NCBI GenBank assembly: GCA_011390155.1
Contig: JAABSW010000007.1
Span: 49,317 to 113,316 of the forward strand
Reading direction: 5' to 3'
Origin: Clostridiaceae bacterium
GTDB taxonomy: Bacteria; Bacillota; Clostridia; Peptostreptococcales; Tindalliaceae
Length of the DNA stretch: 64,000 nucleotides
A program made the position numbers and the translations under genes. Position 1 is the first letter of the stretch; each line of letters starts with the position of its first letter. The notes beneath the pieces were generated by a model. That model searched no databases and was not told where the DNA came from. It saw nothing but the letters and a program-made list of their open reading frames with translations. Below are positions 4,248 to 46,176 of the stretch, piece by piece.

Positions 4248-4324
4248 TGGCGCGGCATGCAGGACTCGAACCTGCAACCAACTGATTCGAAGTCAGGTAC
4301 TCTATCCAATTGAGCTAATGCCGC
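4248..4324 (-). tRNA. tRNA-Arg (anticodon TCG)
   Basis: GCGGCATTAGCTCAATTGGATAGAGTACCTGACTTCGAATCAG...GGTTCGAGTCCTGCATGCCGCGCCA; anticodon loop CTTCGAA; encoded CCA. Confidence 0.93.
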
Positions 4325-4334
4325 AGGATGAAAT

Positions 4335-4409
4335 TGGAGCGGAAGACGGGAATTGAACCCGCGACCCTCGCCTTGGCAAGGCGATGCTCTACCGCTGAGC
4401 CACTTCCGC
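4335..4409 (-). tRNA. tRNA-Gly (anticodon GCC)
   Basis: GCGGAAGTGGCTCAGCGGTAGAGCATCGCCTTGCCAAGGCGAGGGTCGCGGGTTCAATTCCCGTCTTCCGCTCCA. Confidence 0.95.
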
Positions 4410-4438
4410 ATAATGGCGGGATTTATACCCGCCTCGGT

Positions 4439-4514
4439 TGGCTGGGATAGCAGGACTCGAACCTGCGCATGACGGAGTCAAAGTCCGCTGCCTTACCGAC
4501 TTGGCTATATCCCA
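4439..4514 (-). tRNA. tRNA-Gln (anticodon TTG)
   Basis: TGGGATATAGCCAAGTCGGTAAGGCAGCGGACTTTGACTCCG...GGTTCGAGTCCTGCTATCCCAGCCA. Confidence 0.95.
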
Positions 4515-4518
4515 ATGG

Positions 4519-4595
4519 TGGGGTGGATGATGGGATTCGAACCCACGCGTGCAGGAGCCACAATCCTGTGTCTTAACCACTTGACTACATCCACC
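4519..4595 (-). tRNA. tRNA-His (anticodon GTG)
   Basis: GTGGATGTAGTCAAGTGGTTAAGACACAGGATTGTGGCTCCTG...GGTTCGAATCCCATCATCCACCCCA; extra 5' G (-1) opposite C73 expected for tRNA-His. Confidence 0.94.
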
Positions 4596-4600
4596 ATGAT

Positions 4601-4674
4601 TGGAGCGGGCGAAGGGAATCGAACCCTCACGGTCAGCTTGGAAGGCTGAAGTTCTACCATTGAACTACGCCCGC
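4601..4674 (-). tRNA. tRNA-Gly (anticodon TCC)
   Basis: GCGGGCGTAGTTCAATGGTAGAACTTCAGCCTTCCAAGCTGACCGTGAGGGTTCGATTCCCTTCGCCCGCTCCA. Confidence 0.95.
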
Positions 4675-38160: not shown

Positions 38161-40485
38161 TTATTTTTTATCTAATGTCTTTTCCCGCAACGCCATGAAC
38201 ACTTTTTCCGGAGTGGCCGGCAACTGTCGGATTCTCACGCCACAGGCATGATGGATAGCATCGGCAATGGCTGGTGCCACTGTGTTCAGCACCACTTCTC
38301 CAATGGACTTTGCACCAAAGGGGCCTGTCTCATCGTAACCGTCCAACAGTTCAACCCTGACCTTCCCCACGTCTGCCCGACCAGGTATTTTATACTGCAT
38401 AAAGGTATCCTGGATTAATTTTCCCGTTCTGGTGTACGTCGCTTCTTCATACAGTGCCAATCCAATACCCTGTACAATACCTCCCTCAGCCTGCACACTG
38501 GCCAGCCTTGGATTAATGGGCGTTCCACAATCCACCACCCCCACAAAATCAATGGGTGTCACCTTCCCTGTCTCCAGGTCCACTTCCACTTCTGCAAAAC
38601 CTGCCATATAGGGAGGGGCTGCTTTTTTCGGTATAAAAGAACCTGTGACACATAGTTGCTGATGCATGGTGCTGTAGGTGATTTTGTTGGCAAAATCCGC
38701 CAGGGTAATGCTGTCTTCAGGATGATAACAAATCAGCTGATCACCCTGGTAGCTGATATGTTCCTCAGTTGTTTGAAAATAAGCGGCGGCGGCCGTAACA
38801 ATGGCCGATTTCATCTTATCGGCGGCATCGATGATGGCATTGCCGGTGGTATAGGTGGTGCTGGAGGCGTAAGCGCCACTGTCAAAGGGGGTTACATCCG
38901 TATCCGCTGTGTACAGAACAATTTTATCCATGGAAACACCCAGCGCTTCCGCTGCAATCTGGGTCAGGATGGTGTCAGCACCCGTGCCAATGTCCGTAGA
39001 CCCCAATGCCAGGTTGAAAAATCCGTCATCGTTCAGTTTTAATGTGGCTGCGGCCATGTCAATGTTGGGTAGTCCTGATCCCTGTTGGGAAATGGCCATG
39101 CCCACGCCACGCACCTTGTTACCATGCCGCTGTGGGGTTATTCTCTTCTGGTCCCAGTTTATGAGGGCTTTGCCTCTGCTCACACATTCCTCCAGCAGAC
39201 AGCTGTCCATGTACATGGGTGCATCCCCGGCCCCTTTTGTGACCATGTTATAAAGCTTGGTGGTTTCACCCTTGCGAATCATGTTTTTTTCCCGTAAGGC
39301 CACTGGATCCATGTCCAGGGTTTCCGCTAACTCATTCATCGCTGATTCAAGGGCAAAAATTCCCTGGGTAACACCATACCCGCGTAAAGCCCCGCCAGGC
39401 ACATGGTTGGTGTACACCGCTTTTCCGCTGAACCGACTGGCTTCCACCTTGTTATACAAGGTTAACACTTTTTTTCCCGCACTGCCCAGCGTGGTGGCGG
39501 CATGCTCACCATAGGCACCGGTGTCCCAGATGCCCTTCATATCAATGGCCCTGATCTTACCGTCCCTGTCAGCTCCCAGGGTGATGTCGAAGGTCATGGC
39601 GTGCCTGGATGTGGTGCCCCGGAAAACCTCACGCCGGGTGTATACAATTTTAGCTGGTTTGCCCGTGATCATGGTGACCAGGGCAGGGTAAAACTCCGAA
39701 TGCACTGTTTGCTTTGAACCGAAACCTCCACCGATGCGGGGTTTGATAACCCTTATTTTGGAAAGGGGCAAGTCCAGTGCATTGCCTAAAATCCTTCTGA
39801 CATGAAAGGGGATTTGGGTGGAACTGACGATCACCAGACGCCCGTAAACATCCAGGTAGCTGTAAGTACGCTGGGTTTCCATCATCGCCTGGGCCTGACC
39901 CTGGGTTTTATAGGTATGGGTCACCACCACGGGGCATTCAGGCATTACCTCATCAACGCTTCCCAGCTCAAAATCAACCCTTCCTGCAATGTTATGCGCA
40001 GGGTCATGACCAAAATTTGCCAGGGCTTTTATGTCTTCTTCCGGGTGTATGGGCGGCATGGTGTCCGCTGTTTCCATGTCAAGGACCATGGGTTGCATTT
40101 CATAGGTGACTTTTATCATTTTCAGTGCTTTCTCTGCCGTTTTTTCATCGATTGCTGCCACGATGGCCACATCGTCTCCCACATGACGCACCCTGTGGTC
40201 AAGGAGAAACTTATCGTGGGGTGACATTTCCGGGTAGGCCTGTCCTGCCCGGGTAAAGGGCTTTCGGATAACATCCTGGTGTGTCAGCACACACACCACT
40301 CCCGGCATCTTCTCGGCCCGACCCTTGTCGATGCTGGTGATCAGGGCGTGAGGGTGAGGGCTGCGCAATACTTTTACAACCAGGGCTTCCTTTGGTGCCA
40401 AGTCATCTGTATACACTGGTTTTCCCGTTACCAGGCTGATACCGTCCATTTTAGGGAGACTCTGGTTTACGATTTTCATCCTCAT
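38161..40485 (-). CDS. Xanthine dehydrogenase-family molybdenum-binding subunit
   Basis: DGISLVTGKPVYTDDL...GGGFGSKQTV...TNHVPGGALRGYGVTQGIFALESAMNELAE...GPFGAKSIGEVVLNTVAPAIADAIHHA. Confidence 0.94.
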   Translation of the reverse strand: MRMKIVNQSLPKMDGISLVTGKPVYTDDLAPKEALVVKVLRSPHPHALITSIDKGRAEKMPGVVCVLTHQDVIRKPFTRAGQAYPEMSPHDKFLLDHRVRHVGDDVAIVAAIDEKTAEKALKMIKVTYEMQPMVLDMETADTMPPIHPEEDIKALANFGHDPAHNIAGRVDFELGSVDEVMPECPVVVTHTYKTQGQAQAMMETQRTYSYLDVYGRLVIVSSTQIPFHVRRILGNALDLPLSKIRVIKPRIGGGFGSKQTVHSEFYPALVTMITGKPAKIVYTRREVFRGTTSRHAMTFDITLGADRDGKIRAIDMKGIWDTGAYGEHAATTLGSAGKKVLTLYNKVEASRFSGKAVYTNHVPGGALRGYGVTQGIFALESAMNELAETLDMDPVALREKNMIRKGETTKLYNMVTKGAGDAPMYMDSCLLEECVSRGKALINWDQKRITPQRHGNKVRGVGMAISQQGSGLPNIDMAAATLKLNDDGFFNLALGSTDIGTGADTILTQIAAEALGVSMDKIVLYTADTDVTPFDSGAYASSTTYTTGNAIIDAADKMKSAIVTAAAAYFQTTEEHISYQGDQLICYHPEDSITLADFANKITYSTMHQQLCVTGSFIPKKAAPPYMAGFAEVEVDLETGKVTPIDFVGVVDCGTPINPRLASVQAEGGIVQGIGLALYEEATYTRTGKLIQDTFMQYKIPGRADVGKVRVELLDGYDETGPFGAKSIGEVVLNTVAPAIADAIHHACGVRIRQLPATPEKVFMALREKTLDKK

Positions 40486-40972
40486 ACCCTCCCCTTGGCA
40501 CTTGGCCCTCAGATTTTTGCTGCCTTCTCAGGTTGAAATAGGCCTGGATGGCCCTCAATTGGCTGGCGTAACCGGTACATCTGCAAAGATTACCTTTTAA
40601 AAAATGTTTGATCTCTTCTTCAGTTGGATCTTCCACTAACTGCTCCATGTACAGGATGTTCATAACGGTTCCACTGGTACAGTAGCCGCATTGATCTGCT
40701 CCCTGTTCAACAAAAAAGTTGGCGATAGTTGCCGCCTGTTGGGGAACCCCTTCTATGGTGGTGATTTCATGACCTTCTGCCTTGATGGCCAGCAACACAC
40801 AGGAAAGCACCGATTTGCCATCCAGGTGTACTGTACAGACACCACAGTTGCCAGTGTCGCATCCCTGGCGAACCCCCAGGTACCCATTGGCCCTTAATAC
40901 ATCCACCAGGTAGTCATCCGGTCTGATTTCCAGGTTCTTTGGCATGCCGTTAATGGTTGTGTTCAGTTTCAC
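40451..40972 (-). CDS. Xanthine dehydrogenase-family (2Fe-2S)-binding subunit
   Basis: GVRQGCDTGNCGVCTVHLDGKSVLSC and QCGYCTSGTVMNILY...LKGNLCRCTGY. Confidence 0.96.
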   Translation of the reverse strand: MKLNTTINGMPKNLEIRPDDYLVDVLRANGYLGVRQGCDTGNCGVCTVHLDGKSVLSCVLLAIKAEGHEITTIEGVPQQAATIANFFVEQGADQCGYCTSGTVMNILYMEQLVEDPTEEEIKHFLKGNLCRCTGYASQLRAIQAYFNLRRQQKSEGQVPRGGYEDENRKPESP

Positions 40973-41765
40973 TGTTCGCCACCTCCTTCAACACCAGCGC
41001 GACCAGTACCTTGGCCATTTCTTTTCGGTAAGCTCCCGTACCCCGGCTGTTAGTGCCAAAAACCAATTCTTCTGATGCCATCCTGGCAGTCTCTTCCAGT
41101 GCCTCATTCCAGTTGCTCTGCTTGTTCAGGTACTCCATAGCCTTGACTGCCAGTTGAGCTCTGCCGGGTCGGGCACCCAGGCAAATGCGCCAATTCCCAT
41201 CAAAAAGTGCTGCTGATGCATTTAAGAGCGAGTAATCACCATCACTATTGCGCAGGGATGTGGTGAAGGTTTCCGTTTTACCTTTTGGAATAATGATCAT
41301 CTCCAACAGGTCCCTGCCTTCAACCCCTTTTTCGAGAAAAACCTCCAGGGACATGGTGCCTGCTTTGTACAGCTTCACCTGAACGGGTAAGGCCAACAAC
41401 CCGGTAATCAAGTCGGAAAAACCATACCTTGAATACACTGTGGCGCCCAGGGTAACCACGTTTCGCAGCTGCACACCAACGATGTGCTGCACTGATAATT
41501 TAAACAGCTGGCTGAAATCGCGGTTCAGCGCTGAGTGCCTTTCAAGCTCTCCCAAGGTTACCATGGCCCCTATGTGCCATTCATGCTCCTGCTCGCTAAT
41601 ATCATTAAGGCCACAGCTGCTAAGGTCAATGAGGGTGGTGATGTTTTTACTTCCCATTCTTAGAAAACCGCCACCCCCTAATAATGTGGCAAACTTGTTT
41701 TTCTGCAAAGCCTCGTATGCTTCATCCGTTGTTGAGGGTACCACCACTTCTCTAACGGTGATCAT
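40950..41765 (-). CDS. Xanthine dehydrogenase-family FAD-binding subunit
   Basis: FATLLGGGGFLRMGSKNITTLIDLSSCGLNDI...IVGVQLRNVVTLGATVYSRYGFSDLITGLLALP. Confidence 0.93.
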   Translation of the reverse strand: MITVREVVVPSTTDEAYEALQKNKFATLLGGGGFLRMGSKNITTLIDLSSCGLNDISEQEHEWHIGAMVTLGELERHSALNRDFSQLFKLSVQHIVGVQLRNVVTLGATVYSRYGFSDLITGLLALPVQVKLYKAGTMSLEVFLEKGVEGRDLLEMIIIPKGKTETFTTSLRNSDGDYSLLNASAALFDGNWRICLGARPGRAQLAVKAMEYLNKQSNWNEALEETARMASEELVFGTNSRGTGAYRKEMAKVLVALVLKEVANSETEHNH

Positions 41766-41768
41766 CCT

Positions 41769-43133
41769 CTATCCCTCCTGTTCCATTTCTCTTCTTTCCT
41801 GTTGTTCATCCGCTAATGTTTTTTGCGGTAAAATCAGGTTTAATCCAAAGGCCACAATTGTTGAAATAACAACGGCTGAGCGGCCAAATACCATGATCAC
41901 CCAGGCCGGAAAAAGTTCCAATGACTGGGGCACTGTGGTAATACCTATACCCAGGGCAACCGCCAAGCCAACAATGGCCATGTTCCGTCCGGAAAGTTCG
42001 TCCTGAATGATCAGTTTAATGCCTGTCATGGTGATCATGGCAAACACGGTGATGGTGGCACCGCCCAGCACACTCTGGGGAATGGTTGTCATCAAAGCAC
42101 CAAATTTTGGAACGAAACCGGCAAGCAAGATAAAGCCCGCTGCAATGGCCAGGACAAAACGACTCACGACTTTTGTCATTGCCACAATTCCCACGTTTTG
42201 GCTGTAGGTTGCCGTTGGTAAACCACCTATAAAGGAGGCTAGAATACTGGAAGCACCGTTACCCATGATACCACCTGATAATTCCTGGTCTGTTGCTTCT
42301 CTGCCCATACCACCGACAGTTGTGGCAGAAAGATCACCCACCGCCTGCACTGAATTGACGATGTACATGATCACCATGCTGAGGATGGCCGGCGGGTAAA
42401 ACTCAATGCCAAAATGAAGAGGTCTTGGCACTGCAAACCATGCAGCTTCCTGTACCGGAACATAACTGACCATTCCCAGAAGGGCAGCCACCACATAACC
42501 AACAATAATTCCCACTAAAATCGAAGCCAGTTTTGCATACCCTTTCGTAAACTGGTTACAGAACAGCACCACGCTCAATGTCAGCAGTGCCACCAGCCAG
42601 TTGGCATAAGAACCATAAGTGGCAGATCCAACCCCTCCGGCAATGTAGTTAATCGCAATGGGATACAATGATAAGCCAATGGTAAAGACTACGGTACCTG
42701 CCACAAGGGGCGGAAAATATTTACGTATATGTTTAATAAAAATACCGACGAAAATCGCCACAACTCCACCCACCAACTGGGCTCCAAAAATACCTGCGAT
42801 ACCATACTGCCCACCGATGGCAATCAGTGTGGGTACATAAGCGAAACTGACACCCATGATTACCGGCAGCCTTGACCCCACTCTGCCGATGGGATACAGC
42901 TGAAGCAACGTGGCAATGCCCGCAATGAACATGGCCATCTGAACCAACAGAGTTCTGTCGGCAGAACCCAGCCCCACCACACCTGCAATAATGATGGCCG
43001 GTGTTACATTACCAACGATCATGGCCAATACATGCTGCAGCCCCAGGGGTATTGCTTTCCCCATCGAGGGTATTCCGTTTACATCAAAAACCGACGTGTT
43101 CTTCATCGTGTTGCCTGTTACCGTTTTTTCCAT
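41769..43133 (-). CDS. Uracil-xanthine permease family transporter
   Basis: IPLGLQHVLAMIVGNVTPAIIIAGVVGL...GGLPTATYSQNVGIVAMTKVVSR; start set at MEKTVTG after GGAGGAAAAAAG. Confidence 0.94.
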   Translation of the reverse strand: MEKTVTGNTMKNTSVFDVNGIPSMGKAIPLGLQHVLAMIVGNVTPAIIIAGVVGLGSADRTLLVQMAMFIAGIATLLQLYPIGRVGSRLPVIMGVSFAYVPTLIAIGGQYGIAGIFGAQLVGGVVAIFVGIFIKHIRKYFPPLVAGTVVFTIGLSLYPIAINYIAGGVGSATYGSYANWLVALLTLSVVLFCNQFTKGYAKLASILVGIIVGYVVAALLGMVSYVPVQEAAWFAVPRPLHFGIEFYPPAILSMVIMYIVNSVQAVGDLSATTVGGMGREATDQELSGGIMGNGASSILASFIGGLPTATYSQNVGIVAMTKVVSRFVLAIAAGFILLAGFVPKFGALMTTIPQSVLGGATITVFAMITMTGIKLIIQDELSGRNMAIVGLAVALGIGITTVPQSLELFPAWVIMVFGRSAVVISTIVAFGLNLILPQKTLADEQQERREMEQEG

Positions 43134-43199
43134 CTTTTTTCCTCCATTCTGGATTTTGTTTTGGAAATTTTCCTTCAACCTGTGCCGGTTTTTGTCAAA

Positions 43200-43365
43200 A
43201 CAAAAGGCCGACACAAAACCGGGGTACACCCCCACTCGTGTCGGCCACCTTGAGCTTCATCATATGATCTCAGGTCGTTACCGTCCGCATCATTCAGTTG
43301 TAGTCATCCGTTATTCCGCTTCAGCACTGGGTCTGAAGGCGGCTAATTGTCAAAATGTTCAAATA
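43200..43365 (-). promoter_or_regulatory. Structured 5' leader ending in an intrinsic terminator (candidate riboswitch/attenuator)
   Basis: Minus strand: promoter-like TTGCGA-N18-TAAGAT, hairpin GCCGCCTTCAG...CTGAAGCGG, ACCTGAG..CTCAAGGT hairpin, then GGCCGACAC...GTGTCGGCC-TTTTGTTTT, all before the permease RBS. Confidence 0.55.
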
Positions 43366-43438
43366 CATCTTACCACAATGGCCCTGGGTTTCGCAAGACG
43401 TTAAAGAAAAAATGTTAAAGAAAAAACATGGGTTGCCT

Positions 43439-44221
43439 TCATCGAATGACGAGGACAATCTTCTCAGCGTTGCGCTGGCTGTCACAAGTTACTTCTTCCA
43501 ACTCAACAGCACAGGACATTACCCCAGAAAGATTTTTAATCAACGTGGTTTCATTCTCACCATAAAATATTTTTCTGTGGTAATCCACCAGACTGTAATG
43601 ACGACCATTCACCAAGATCCCTTCTTCCAGTTTGGTCAGGCATCCCTTCAGACGTATTTCGATTCTGTTTCCCTTAATGGCAACATGTACGTCCCTGGGT
43701 CCTTTTCCTGTCTGTTTTTTAAGAAAATGAGCCATTTCACCTCTGATCTTCATCTCCACTTCCGCCACTTGGTCTGCGTCCATGAGGCAATGCTCACCTA
43801 ACACAACCACGTCACCTTTTTTCATCAGGATGTCCCTGGCCACCCGTTGCATCTGTGTCATTAGCTCTTCCAAGTTGATGGGCTTCACCACGTAGTGAAC
43901 GATACCCACATCAACCGCCTCAATAATGGTTTCTGCGTCTGATAATGCAGAGGTAATAATCACCGGTGTTTCTTTGCCGTTTCTTCTCATCTGGCGAATC
44001 ATACTAAGTCCATCCATTTCGGGCATCTTCAAATCAGTAATGACCAATTGCGGTGCTTCATCATCAATGTAGCGTAAGGCTTCTTTTCCATTGGTTGCAA
44101 TGATAAGACGCCCCACCCGTCGCTTCAGGTACAACGCCAATTCCTGTCGCGTTTGGCTGTCGTCTTCAATGTACAACACCGTTAATTGCTTTAAAACTGC
44201 AGTAGATTCAGGTTGAATCAT
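43439..44221 (-). CDS. Response regulator with C-terminal DUF2294/MpsC-like domain
   Basis: CheY-like VLYIEDDSQTRQEL...PQLVITDLKMPEMDGLSMI...VVKPINLEEL; C-terminus GKGPRDVHVAIKGNRIEIRLKGCLTKLEEGIL... resembles DUF2294. Confidence 0.85.
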   Translation of the reverse strand: MIQPESTAVLKQLTVLYIEDDSQTRQELALYLKRRVGRLIIATNGKEALRYIDDEAPQLVITDLKMPEMDGLSMIRQMRRNGKETPVIITSALSDAETIIEAVDVGIVHYVVKPINLEELMTQMQRVARDILMKKGDVVVLGEHCLMDADQVAEVEMKIRGEMAHFLKKQTGKGPRDVHVAIKGNRIEIRLKGCLTKLEEGILVNGRHYSLVDYHRKIFYGENETTLIKNLSGVMSCAVELEEVTCDSQRNAEKIVLVIR

Positions 44222-46176
44222 ATTTTTTCCCCCTTAGTCACACCATGGATCCACACAGTCATAGTAGCCCCCTTTTCCCAATTATCCCAGGTCAATCGGC
44301 CTTTCAGCCTGCTCTCCACAATGGTTTTCGTCATATATAACCCCAGTCCGGTGCCCTGCTGTTGTGATTTTGTGCTGAAATAAGGCTCAGCGATTCGGTT
44401 GATAATTTTACCCGGTATGCCGCCGCCGGTATCCGAAACCGATATTTTTACCCACTGGTCTTCAGACAGTATACGAATCACAATAGCACGGTGTGCTGGT
44501 TTATTCTCCACCAACACATCAACGGCATTGGCAATGAGATTGAACACCGCCTGGGAAAATTGGTTGGCGTAGCCGTGCAGTTGAATCTCCTCCTCTGAGG
44601 ATATATGAACAACAATATGATGCACCCTGCATTTTTCATCCATTAAATCGACAATTTTTTCAATCTCCTGAAGAGGATCGAAGGATTCTTTGTCTTTTGT
44701 AGGATTGGCAAATTGCATAAAATCATCAATGGTACCAGACATTCTATTAATTAATTTTTTGCTTTTATCCATGGACAGCATTAGCTGGCTTTCATCCAAC
44801 TCTCCATGCCAAAAAGCATCTTCCAGGTTGGCCAATACCAACCCCATGTTATTTAATGGCTGTCGCCATTGATGGGCAATGTTTGCCACCATTTCTCCCA
44901 TGGCCGCCATGCGGGCTTGATAGATCATCAAAGCTTCCTTTTTTTTGTTTTCCTCTTCTGCTCGCCTAAACAATGCTTCCATCTTGCCAGCGGTACTCCT
45001 GGAGGCCATAGTGACCAACAACACACCACTTAGCACCAAAAGTGCGATGATGCTGGTCACTAACAACATCTGTCTTTGACTTTCAGTCTGCTCACTGCGG
45101 ATGTGATCGTAGTTAAAGATGAAACGACCGGGGTTAAAAGGCTGCTGCAACATGTTGAGTTGAGACAGCAACCGATGCATTTCCTCCCATCGAAAAGCGT
45201 GCAGGTTACCCAGTTCAACAACAGGGAAATAGCTGAGTTCTCTGACCTGGTTCGCCTGAAAGAGGTTGTAGGATAATACTTCCTCTTGATCACGTTCGGG
45301 ATAAAAGGTCTCCGCAATGGAGGTTGCCATGGTTTCCGGGTGTTCCAGGGCAAACAACCAACCTTTCAGTGTCGCCTTTCTGAATCGTTCCACCAGCTCA
45401 GGGCTCTCCAGTGTCAATTTAGTGGAGGTAAAGAGACTGTCACCATAAAAATCAATGCCATGATCGATGGGGCGCATGACTTGTAAGGAAATACCTGCAT
45501 CCTCTGCTTCTTTTAGTATGCTTCCCAGGTATACCGGCACCACATCGTACTCTCCCATTAACAGATCTTTCAAAACAAAACTCCCCTGTTTTTCAGTGTA
45601 GGATAACAGCTCCGGGTCAATCCCTTCGGCGATGAGCATCGCCTGTAATTCAATGTCCAGCAAATCATCTTCTCTTCTTGCTGTGTTTACATGCACCAGA
45701 TCAACAGGTGTTCTTACCCTGGTACCTTCCTTCATGTAATAACCCACGGCACTTCTTTGAAAAATAGCTGCCACTACTGTAAGCGGTTCATTTTGGTCAT
45801 TGGCCAATAAAATGTCAACGGCCCCAACGCCAAAATCGGCCCTTCCCGCCTGCACTTCCTCTGTGGCCTGAATAACCTCACCTTCATCTGAAAATCCGGA
45901 TCGAATCTCAACAGAAAAACCTTCCTCCTCATAGAATCCTTGCCAAAGAGCGGCATAGTAACCGGCAAATTGAAACTGTGGTTCCCATCTTAACTGGAGC
46001 ACCACTTTGTCCAACCCTTCTGCCTGAACAGGAAGAACAGAAAACATGATAATACCCCATAACAACAGCAGTGCCGCCATTGATAAAAATAATAATCTCT
46101 TCCCACTGTTCCATTGAATCACATGATCATATCCTTTAAGAGAATTATCCCTTTTACTGGATTTATTTTGCATCAA
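44218..46176 (-). CDS. Sensor histidine kinase with extracytoplasmic NMT1/THI5-like domain
   Basis: KVVLQLRWEPQFQFAGYYAALWQGFYEEEGFSVEIRSG (NMT1-like); TM; MGEMVANIAHQWRQPLNNMGLVLANLED (H-box); GGGIPGKIINRIAEPYFSTKSQQQGTGLGLYMTK (ATPase). Confidence 0.94.
   Translation of the reverse strand: MMQNKSSKRDNSLKGYDHVIQWNSGKRLLFLSMAALLLLWGIIMFSVLPVQAEGLDKVVLQLRWEPQFQFAGYYAALWQGFYEEEGFSVEIRSGFSDEGEVIQATEEVQAGRADFGVGAVDILLANDQNEPLTVVAAIFQRSAVGYYMKEGTRVRTPVDLVHVNTARREDDLLDIELQAMLIAEGIDPELLSYTEKQGSFVLKDLLMGEYDVVPVYLGSILKEAEDAGISLQVMRPIDHGIDFYGDSLFTSTKLTLESPELVERFRKATLKGWLFALEHPETMATSIAETFYPERDQEEVLSYNLFQANQVRELSYFPVVELGNLHAFRWEEMHRLLSQLNMLQQPFNPGRFIFNYDHIRSEQTESQRQMLLVTSIIALLVLSGVLLVTMASRSTAGKMEALFRRAEEENKKKEALMIYQARMAAMGEMVANIAHQWRQPLNNMGLVLANLEDAFWHGELDESQLMLSMDKSKKLINRMSGTIDDFMQFANPTKDKESFDPLQEIEKIVDLMDEKCRVHHIVVHISSEEEIQLHGYANQFSQAVFNLIANAVDVLVENKPAHRAIVIRILSEDQWVKISVSDTGGGIPGKIINRIAEPYFSTKSQQQGTGLGLYMTKTIVESRLKGRLTWDNWEKGATMTVWIHGVTKGEKI

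Follow-up and report, generated by a model that had tools for sequence, protein, structure and literature searches.

A conserved terminator/antiterminator leader ahead of a clostridial xanthine permease operon and its association with MpsC-type response regulators

A leader of about 160 nt lies between a promoter-like site and a strong intrinsic terminator in the window, i.e., the whole stretch of 64,000 nt analyzed here. It is located between a response regulator gene (43439-44221) and the xanthine permease gene pbuX (ATG at 43133), and leader, promoter and terminator are all encoded on the minus strand, directly ahead of pbuX and xdh-like genes. The leader is probably a transcription attenuator operated by a two-component system whose genes lie directly upstream: the response regulator with an MpsC output domain (RR-MpsC) would stabilize an antiterminator via two hairpins, P1 and P2, leading to readthrough. 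With somewhat less confidence, it is proposed that the MpsC domain (PF10057/DUF2294) is, next to ANTAR, a further and so far unrecognized output domain through which response regulators bind RNA; its targets would be a new class of P1-P2 antiterminator leaders that govern operons for purines, citrate, amino acids and chemotaxis throughout the clostridial order. The features of the locus are as follows.

38161..40485, minus strand: xdh-like molybdopterin subunit (PF02738, PF20256, PF01315; XdhA model below the equivalog cut-off)
40451..40972, minus strand: xdh-like [2Fe-2S] subunit (PF01799, PF00111)
40950..41765, minus strand: xdh-like FAD-binding subunit (PF00941, PF03450)
41769..43133, minus strand: pbuX, xanthine permease (NCS2), proposed regulated gene (TIGR03173 above cut-off, PF00860)
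43197..43205, minus strand: terminator T-run TTTTGTTTT (sequence)
43206..43246, minus strand: intrinsic terminator hairpin (sequence, fold of -28.9 kcal/mol, covariation)
43247..43275, minus strand: hairpin P2, with a G-C-closed 1x2 internal loop, A43268 versus A43256-G43255 (fold, conservation, covariation)
43280..43285, minus strand: antiterminator 5' arm GACGGU, pairing with 43245-43240 (covariation)
43316..43342, minus strand: hairpin P1, CCGC-UUCAG, with the 8-nt loop ACCCAGUG, first A, last G (folding; counterparts in most relatives)
43367..43396, minus strand: promoter-like site, -35 TTGCGA (43396-43391), 18-nt spacer, -10 TAAGAT (43372-43367)
43439..44221, minus strand: response regulator with MpsC output domain, candidate antiterminator protein (PF00072 and PF10057; association)
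44218..46176, minus strand: histidine kinase with NMT1/THI5-like sensor domain, proposed partner (PF09084, PF00512, PF02518; also in relatives)

PbuX scored 433.5 against the NCBIfam cut-off of 414. The xdh-like subunits matched XDH models, yet under the equivalog cut-offs. The kinase gene is located upstream of the response regulator gene, whose MpsC domain scored 50.6 bits (curated cut-off 23). Elsewhere in the window, five tRNA genes are clustered at 4251-4674 on the minus strand.

The promoter TTGCGA-N18-TAAGAT named in the original prediction is present at 43396-43367 on the minus strand, though its score in a simple scan was not above chance; TTGCAT/TTGCAC-N17-TAAAAT/TACAAT occurs at the equivalent position in Anoxynatronum buryatiense (L009) and Tindallia-like genomes (L052/L053). 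The hairpin and T-run quoted there ahead of the first gene coincide exactly with 43246-43206 and 43205-43197. The three nested inverted repeats were not recovered as such; instead, P1, P2 and the terminator are arranged in series, and an additional antiterminator helix competes with the terminator. Folded alone, the terminator had a z of -5.2, and none of 200 shuffles was as stable. The leader as a whole (43362-43195) had a z of -2.6. Since the region 5' of the terminator, folded alone, was no more stable than shuffles (z of -0.8), thermodynamics is insufficient for the upstream structure, which was judged by comparison; it is comparative sequence evidence that proves this structure. An inverted repeat, CCGGTTTTGT ... 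ACAAAAACCGG, at 43222-43185 overlaps the terminator 3' arm and the DNA downstream.

Homologous loci were found via the permease; in a blastn search, the leader itself matched the 31 relatives in short low-complexity stretches only. A pbuX leader with the same parts was observed in A. buryatiense (L009), Tindallia-like genomes (L052, L053), Alkaliphilus (L010, L011, L013) and their kin L056-L058, as well as in the more distant genomes L059-L061, L077, L072 and L074; L052 and L053 are called Tindallia-like on the basis of their kinship. In L009, L010, L011 and L013, for which the upstream DNA was fully read, the kinase gene is followed by regulator, leader, pbuX and xdh, as in the window; in L072 and L074, the regulator gene is not adjacent to the leader. 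No leader was found upstream of pbuX in L014-L024 (Clostridium, C. difficile), many of which carry sigma-54-like TTGGCA-N5-TTGCT sites in its place.

The terminator/antiterminator arrangement was evaluated with 15 aligned leaders (A2). In the terminator stem, 95% of the cells were paired and nine pairs were changed on both sides, and 0 of 500 shuffles performed as well. A second helix is incompatible with the terminator: GACGGU at 43285-43280 pairs with the terminator 5' arm GCCGAC at 43245-43240 and encloses P2, with one A-A mismatch in the window. For antiterminator and P2 together, 92% of the cells were paired, with 11 two-sided pairs, and the covariation value of 0.517 (0.266 ± 0.023 for shuffles) collapsed in slid controls. 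The same structure yielded 0.364, compared to 0.213 ± 0.013, in 49 diverse leaders. In an arm-swap test, arms paired with their own partners reached a mean of -5.8 kcal/mol, while swapped arms reached -3.97 ± 0.27 kcal/mol (0 of 20,000 permutations as good), and the result was likewise obtained with 29 distinct arms. The antiterminator pairing was not encoded in R1, the model used to search for leaders; a model based on RNAalifold (R2) lost P2 and was set aside. Together, these sequence comparisons make a strong case for a terminator/antiterminator attenuator: terminator and antiterminator are mutually exclusive, and both covary, as in intrinsic-terminator attenuators. Thus, the collection of homologous leaders and the covariation analysis proposed with the original prediction revealed conservation and compensatory changes in relatives, which supports its view of a regulated-readthrough leader.

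A strong hairpin with a T-run behind a regulator gene could also be an ordinary constitutive terminator of that gene, with partial readthrough and no switch. This is highly improbable, since the terminator follows a promoter of its own, the helix competing for its arm covaries, and some leaders lie kilobases away from the RR gene.

The Rfam scan suggested at the outset matched no known class. For the window and 21 relatives, no match reached the gathering threshold, sub-threshold matches being unrelated RNAs at chance level, and none of the riboswitch covariance models (purine, xanthine/NMT1, Moco, ykkC and others) matched. The absence of a recognizable purine-riboswitch, ykkC-like or Moco core was thereby borne out at the gathering level, and the suggestion of an uncommon or undescribed leader class agrees with an element that has no Rfam family and is conserved and covarying in relatives.

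The genes behind the leader are diverse. Of 395 genomes from the order, 40 contained the leader (E<=0.01) in the model search; opposite-strand matches of strong hits are palindrome artefacts. Among the genes that follow are those for transporters, namely 2-hydroxycarboxylate (2HCT, citrate) carriers, carriers of the Na+/H+ antiporter type, and permeases for purines and amino acids. Others encode citrate lyase ligase, PrpF, an M28 peptidase and a subunit of the oxaloacetate-decarboxylase type; further ones were assigned to chemotaxis by eye. The chemotaxis variant is represented by L187, L188, L198, L200, L202 and L217, where it either follows an RR-MpsC gene or belongs to a genome that encodes RR-MpsC; members of the L187 type carry the antiterminator arm UAUGGA/UCCAUA, and the next gene in L187, L188, L198 and L217 reads as a methyl-accepting chemotaxis protein or CheV. 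In L148, behind the RR gene (9836 onward), P1, P2 and the antiterminator arm are recognizable, while the terminator hairpin and T-run are apparently lost; this remnant precedes a 2HCT-like carrier gene.

No single metabolite fits this range of contexts. Since the same leader precedes citrate, amino-acid, transporter and chemotaxis genes, a purine or molybdenum aptamer is unlikely, and the purine-, xanthine- or Mo-responsive reading initially put forward was rejected; the element also stands before PrpF and peptidase genes, and its constant partner is RR-MpsC. The leader resembles purine-family and xanthine (NMT1) riboswitches in its position ahead of purine transport genes and in its terminator output, but it does not match them in Rfam and its contexts are not purine-specific. 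A metabolite riboswitch of an undescribed class, in which the RNA binds purine, molybdate or a general signal (e.g., a nucleotide) and RR-MpsC acts elsewhere, would account for a terminator-ended leader before transport genes, for conserved hairpins and loops and for the missing Rfam match. It is quite unlikely, since it would have to serve citrate, amino-acid, PrpF and chemotaxis genes alike, since a large conserved core is absent, the conservation being mainly a small repeated internal loop, and since one kind of regulator is tightly associated.

This association was evident across genomes. All 29 genomes with strong leader matches encode an RR-MpsC, compared to 63 of 395 genomes overall (p 1e-26), and without the 15 training genomes the numbers were 14 of 14 and 48 of 380 (p 4e-14), both p-values overstating independence because the genomes are related and not phylogenetically independent. 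At E<=0.01, 35 of the 40 leader genomes encode RR-MpsC. Conversely, a leader (E<0.01) was found inside the stretch examined at 42 of 73 RR-MpsC loci, and in 22 of these it lies at most 400 nt behind the RR gene on the same strand. The remaining 31 loci gave no match to the leader model at E<0.01; among these model-negative loci, a leader is visible by eye in L187, L188, L198, L200, L202, L165, L166 and L180, and none is visible behind the RR gene in L152, L157, L162, L173 and L176. The sole believable leader outside the order (G433) is on the contig carrying that genome's only RR-MpsC. Leader matches in genomes lacking RR-MpsC (G097, G205, G231, G342, G374, G633) were weak, and the match in G633 was dismissed as an ordinary terminator on reading.

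Having a response regulator with an MpsC output domain as its constant partner, the leader points to a protein-controlled antiterminator. The protein acting on the RNA could be another RNA-binding protein, with RR-MpsC as a linked partner, e.g., regulating that protein. The 31 RR-MpsC loci without a detectable leader and the lack of a known RNA-binding fold in MpsC fit this alternative. Nonetheless, it is unlikely: among the leaders read, no other regulator gene recurred beside them, and RR-MpsC has no DNA-binding domain through which to act otherwise.

RNA binding by RR-MpsC itself is suggested by this association, and the two hairpins offer a repeated motif. P2, and often P1 too, contains a G-C-closed 1x2 internal loop in which a 5' A faces NG or GA on the 3' strand. 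In folds of single sequences, the loop was seen in P1 of 15 and in P2 of 18 of 49 leaders (0.28 and 0.12 in shuffles), the shared loop thus appearing by such folding in about one third of the leaders only. In the window, P2 carries the 1x2 loop (A/AG) under a 3-nt apical loop, and P1 has an 8-nt loop on a G-C pair, with A as its first and G as its last nucleotide. P1 seems to be missing from some leaders (L145, L156, L171). By analogy with ANTAR RNAs (PMC3369931), such a repeat may be what a dimeric protein would read.

The proposed mechanism is as follows. By default, the hairpin at 43246-43206, itself evident from sequence and covariation, would terminate transcription before pbuX. Alternatively, P2 would be extended by the covarying pairing of 43285-43280 with 43245-43240, which may block closure of the terminator. 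The NMT1-domain kinase may sense a ligand, probably a purine or a related compound, and would phosphorylate RR-MpsC; by analogy with ANTAR/EutV, phosphorylated RR-MpsC would dimerize and bind P1 and P2, and the bound protein would stabilize the antiterminator, allowing transcription to continue into pbuX-xdh. The energies calculated for the window were -40.6 kcal/mol for the antiterminator conformer and -54.5 kcal/mol for the terminator conformer. Since the antiterminator conformer is much less stable, by about 14 kcal/mol, a stabilizer or kinetic help would be needed, and the modeled gap is consistent with a default-off state. The system of the window may be one of a broad family of RR-MpsC and leader modules serving different operons.

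ANTAR systems (EutV/eut, NasR/nasF, AmiR/ami) likewise combine response regulators with dual-hairpin leader RNAs (PMC3369931). Common to both are a sensor-controlled regulator without a DNA-binding domain, two small leader hairpins before an intrinsic terminator with antitermination, as proposed here, and transport and catabolic operons as targets (PMC3369931). The tandem hairpins before the leader's terminator were found in the window and many relatives, P1 not being present in all. In contrast, the output domain here is MpsC: all 32 RR proteins scanned contained Response_reg and MpsC only, without a DNA-binding domain or the ANTAR RNA-binding output domain. Unlike the ANTAR hexanucleotide loops with A1 and G4, of which the window has none (8 nt in P1, 3 nt in P2), the motif here is a 1x2 loop (A opposite NG or GA) below an apical stem that varies. 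Moreover, a separate antiterminator helix competes for the 5' arm of the terminator, and the contexts include citrate and chemotaxis. Since the two defining features, domain and hexaloops, are missing, membership in the ANTAR class was rejected.

In BglG/LicT, PyrR and similar systems, an antiterminator influenced by a protein overlaps the terminator 5' arm. The leader shares this overlap and, as proposed, the protein influence, but no such regulator gene lies beside it, the RNA is different, and RR-MpsC is found instead. In open-licence papers, no description was found of this leader/regulator system, of DUF2294/MpsC as a regulator output or of a regulatory role of the domain. The system would represent antitermination by a response regulator, acting on an RNA family that is new; the RNA-binding output domain, if confirmed, would be new as well and would join ANTAR in two-component signaling. 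This would assign a function to the orphan MpsC/DUF2294 domain of response regulators and define an RNA family linking extracellular sensing to readthrough of genes for transport, citrate fermentation and chemotaxis. For dozens of orphan RR-MpsC systems, it would also yield a directly testable prediction of the operons that each one controls.

The MpsC domain was predicted with a pLDDT of 94.6 as a helix, a beta hairpin, three helices and a beta hairpin. A fold search with MpsC only against the PDB gave no significant match and no known RNA-binding fold, a PDB sequence search found no solved relative of the domain, and searching with the whole RR was uninformative because receiver domains dominate the matches. 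In the MpsC search (e.g., G090, G157 and G389), the domains separated into two groups. Most are high-scoring stand-alone proteins (120-134 bits) about 120-130 aa long, and the others are divergent receiver fusions that typically score 45-75 bits. In S. aureus, the MpsABC bicarbonate transporter locus encodes a stand-alone MpsC (DUF2294) of the same Pfam family, PF10057, whereas the domain here is receiver-fused and of the divergent subgroup. Up to four MpsC genes per genome were found, and the genome of the window has one, beside the leader.
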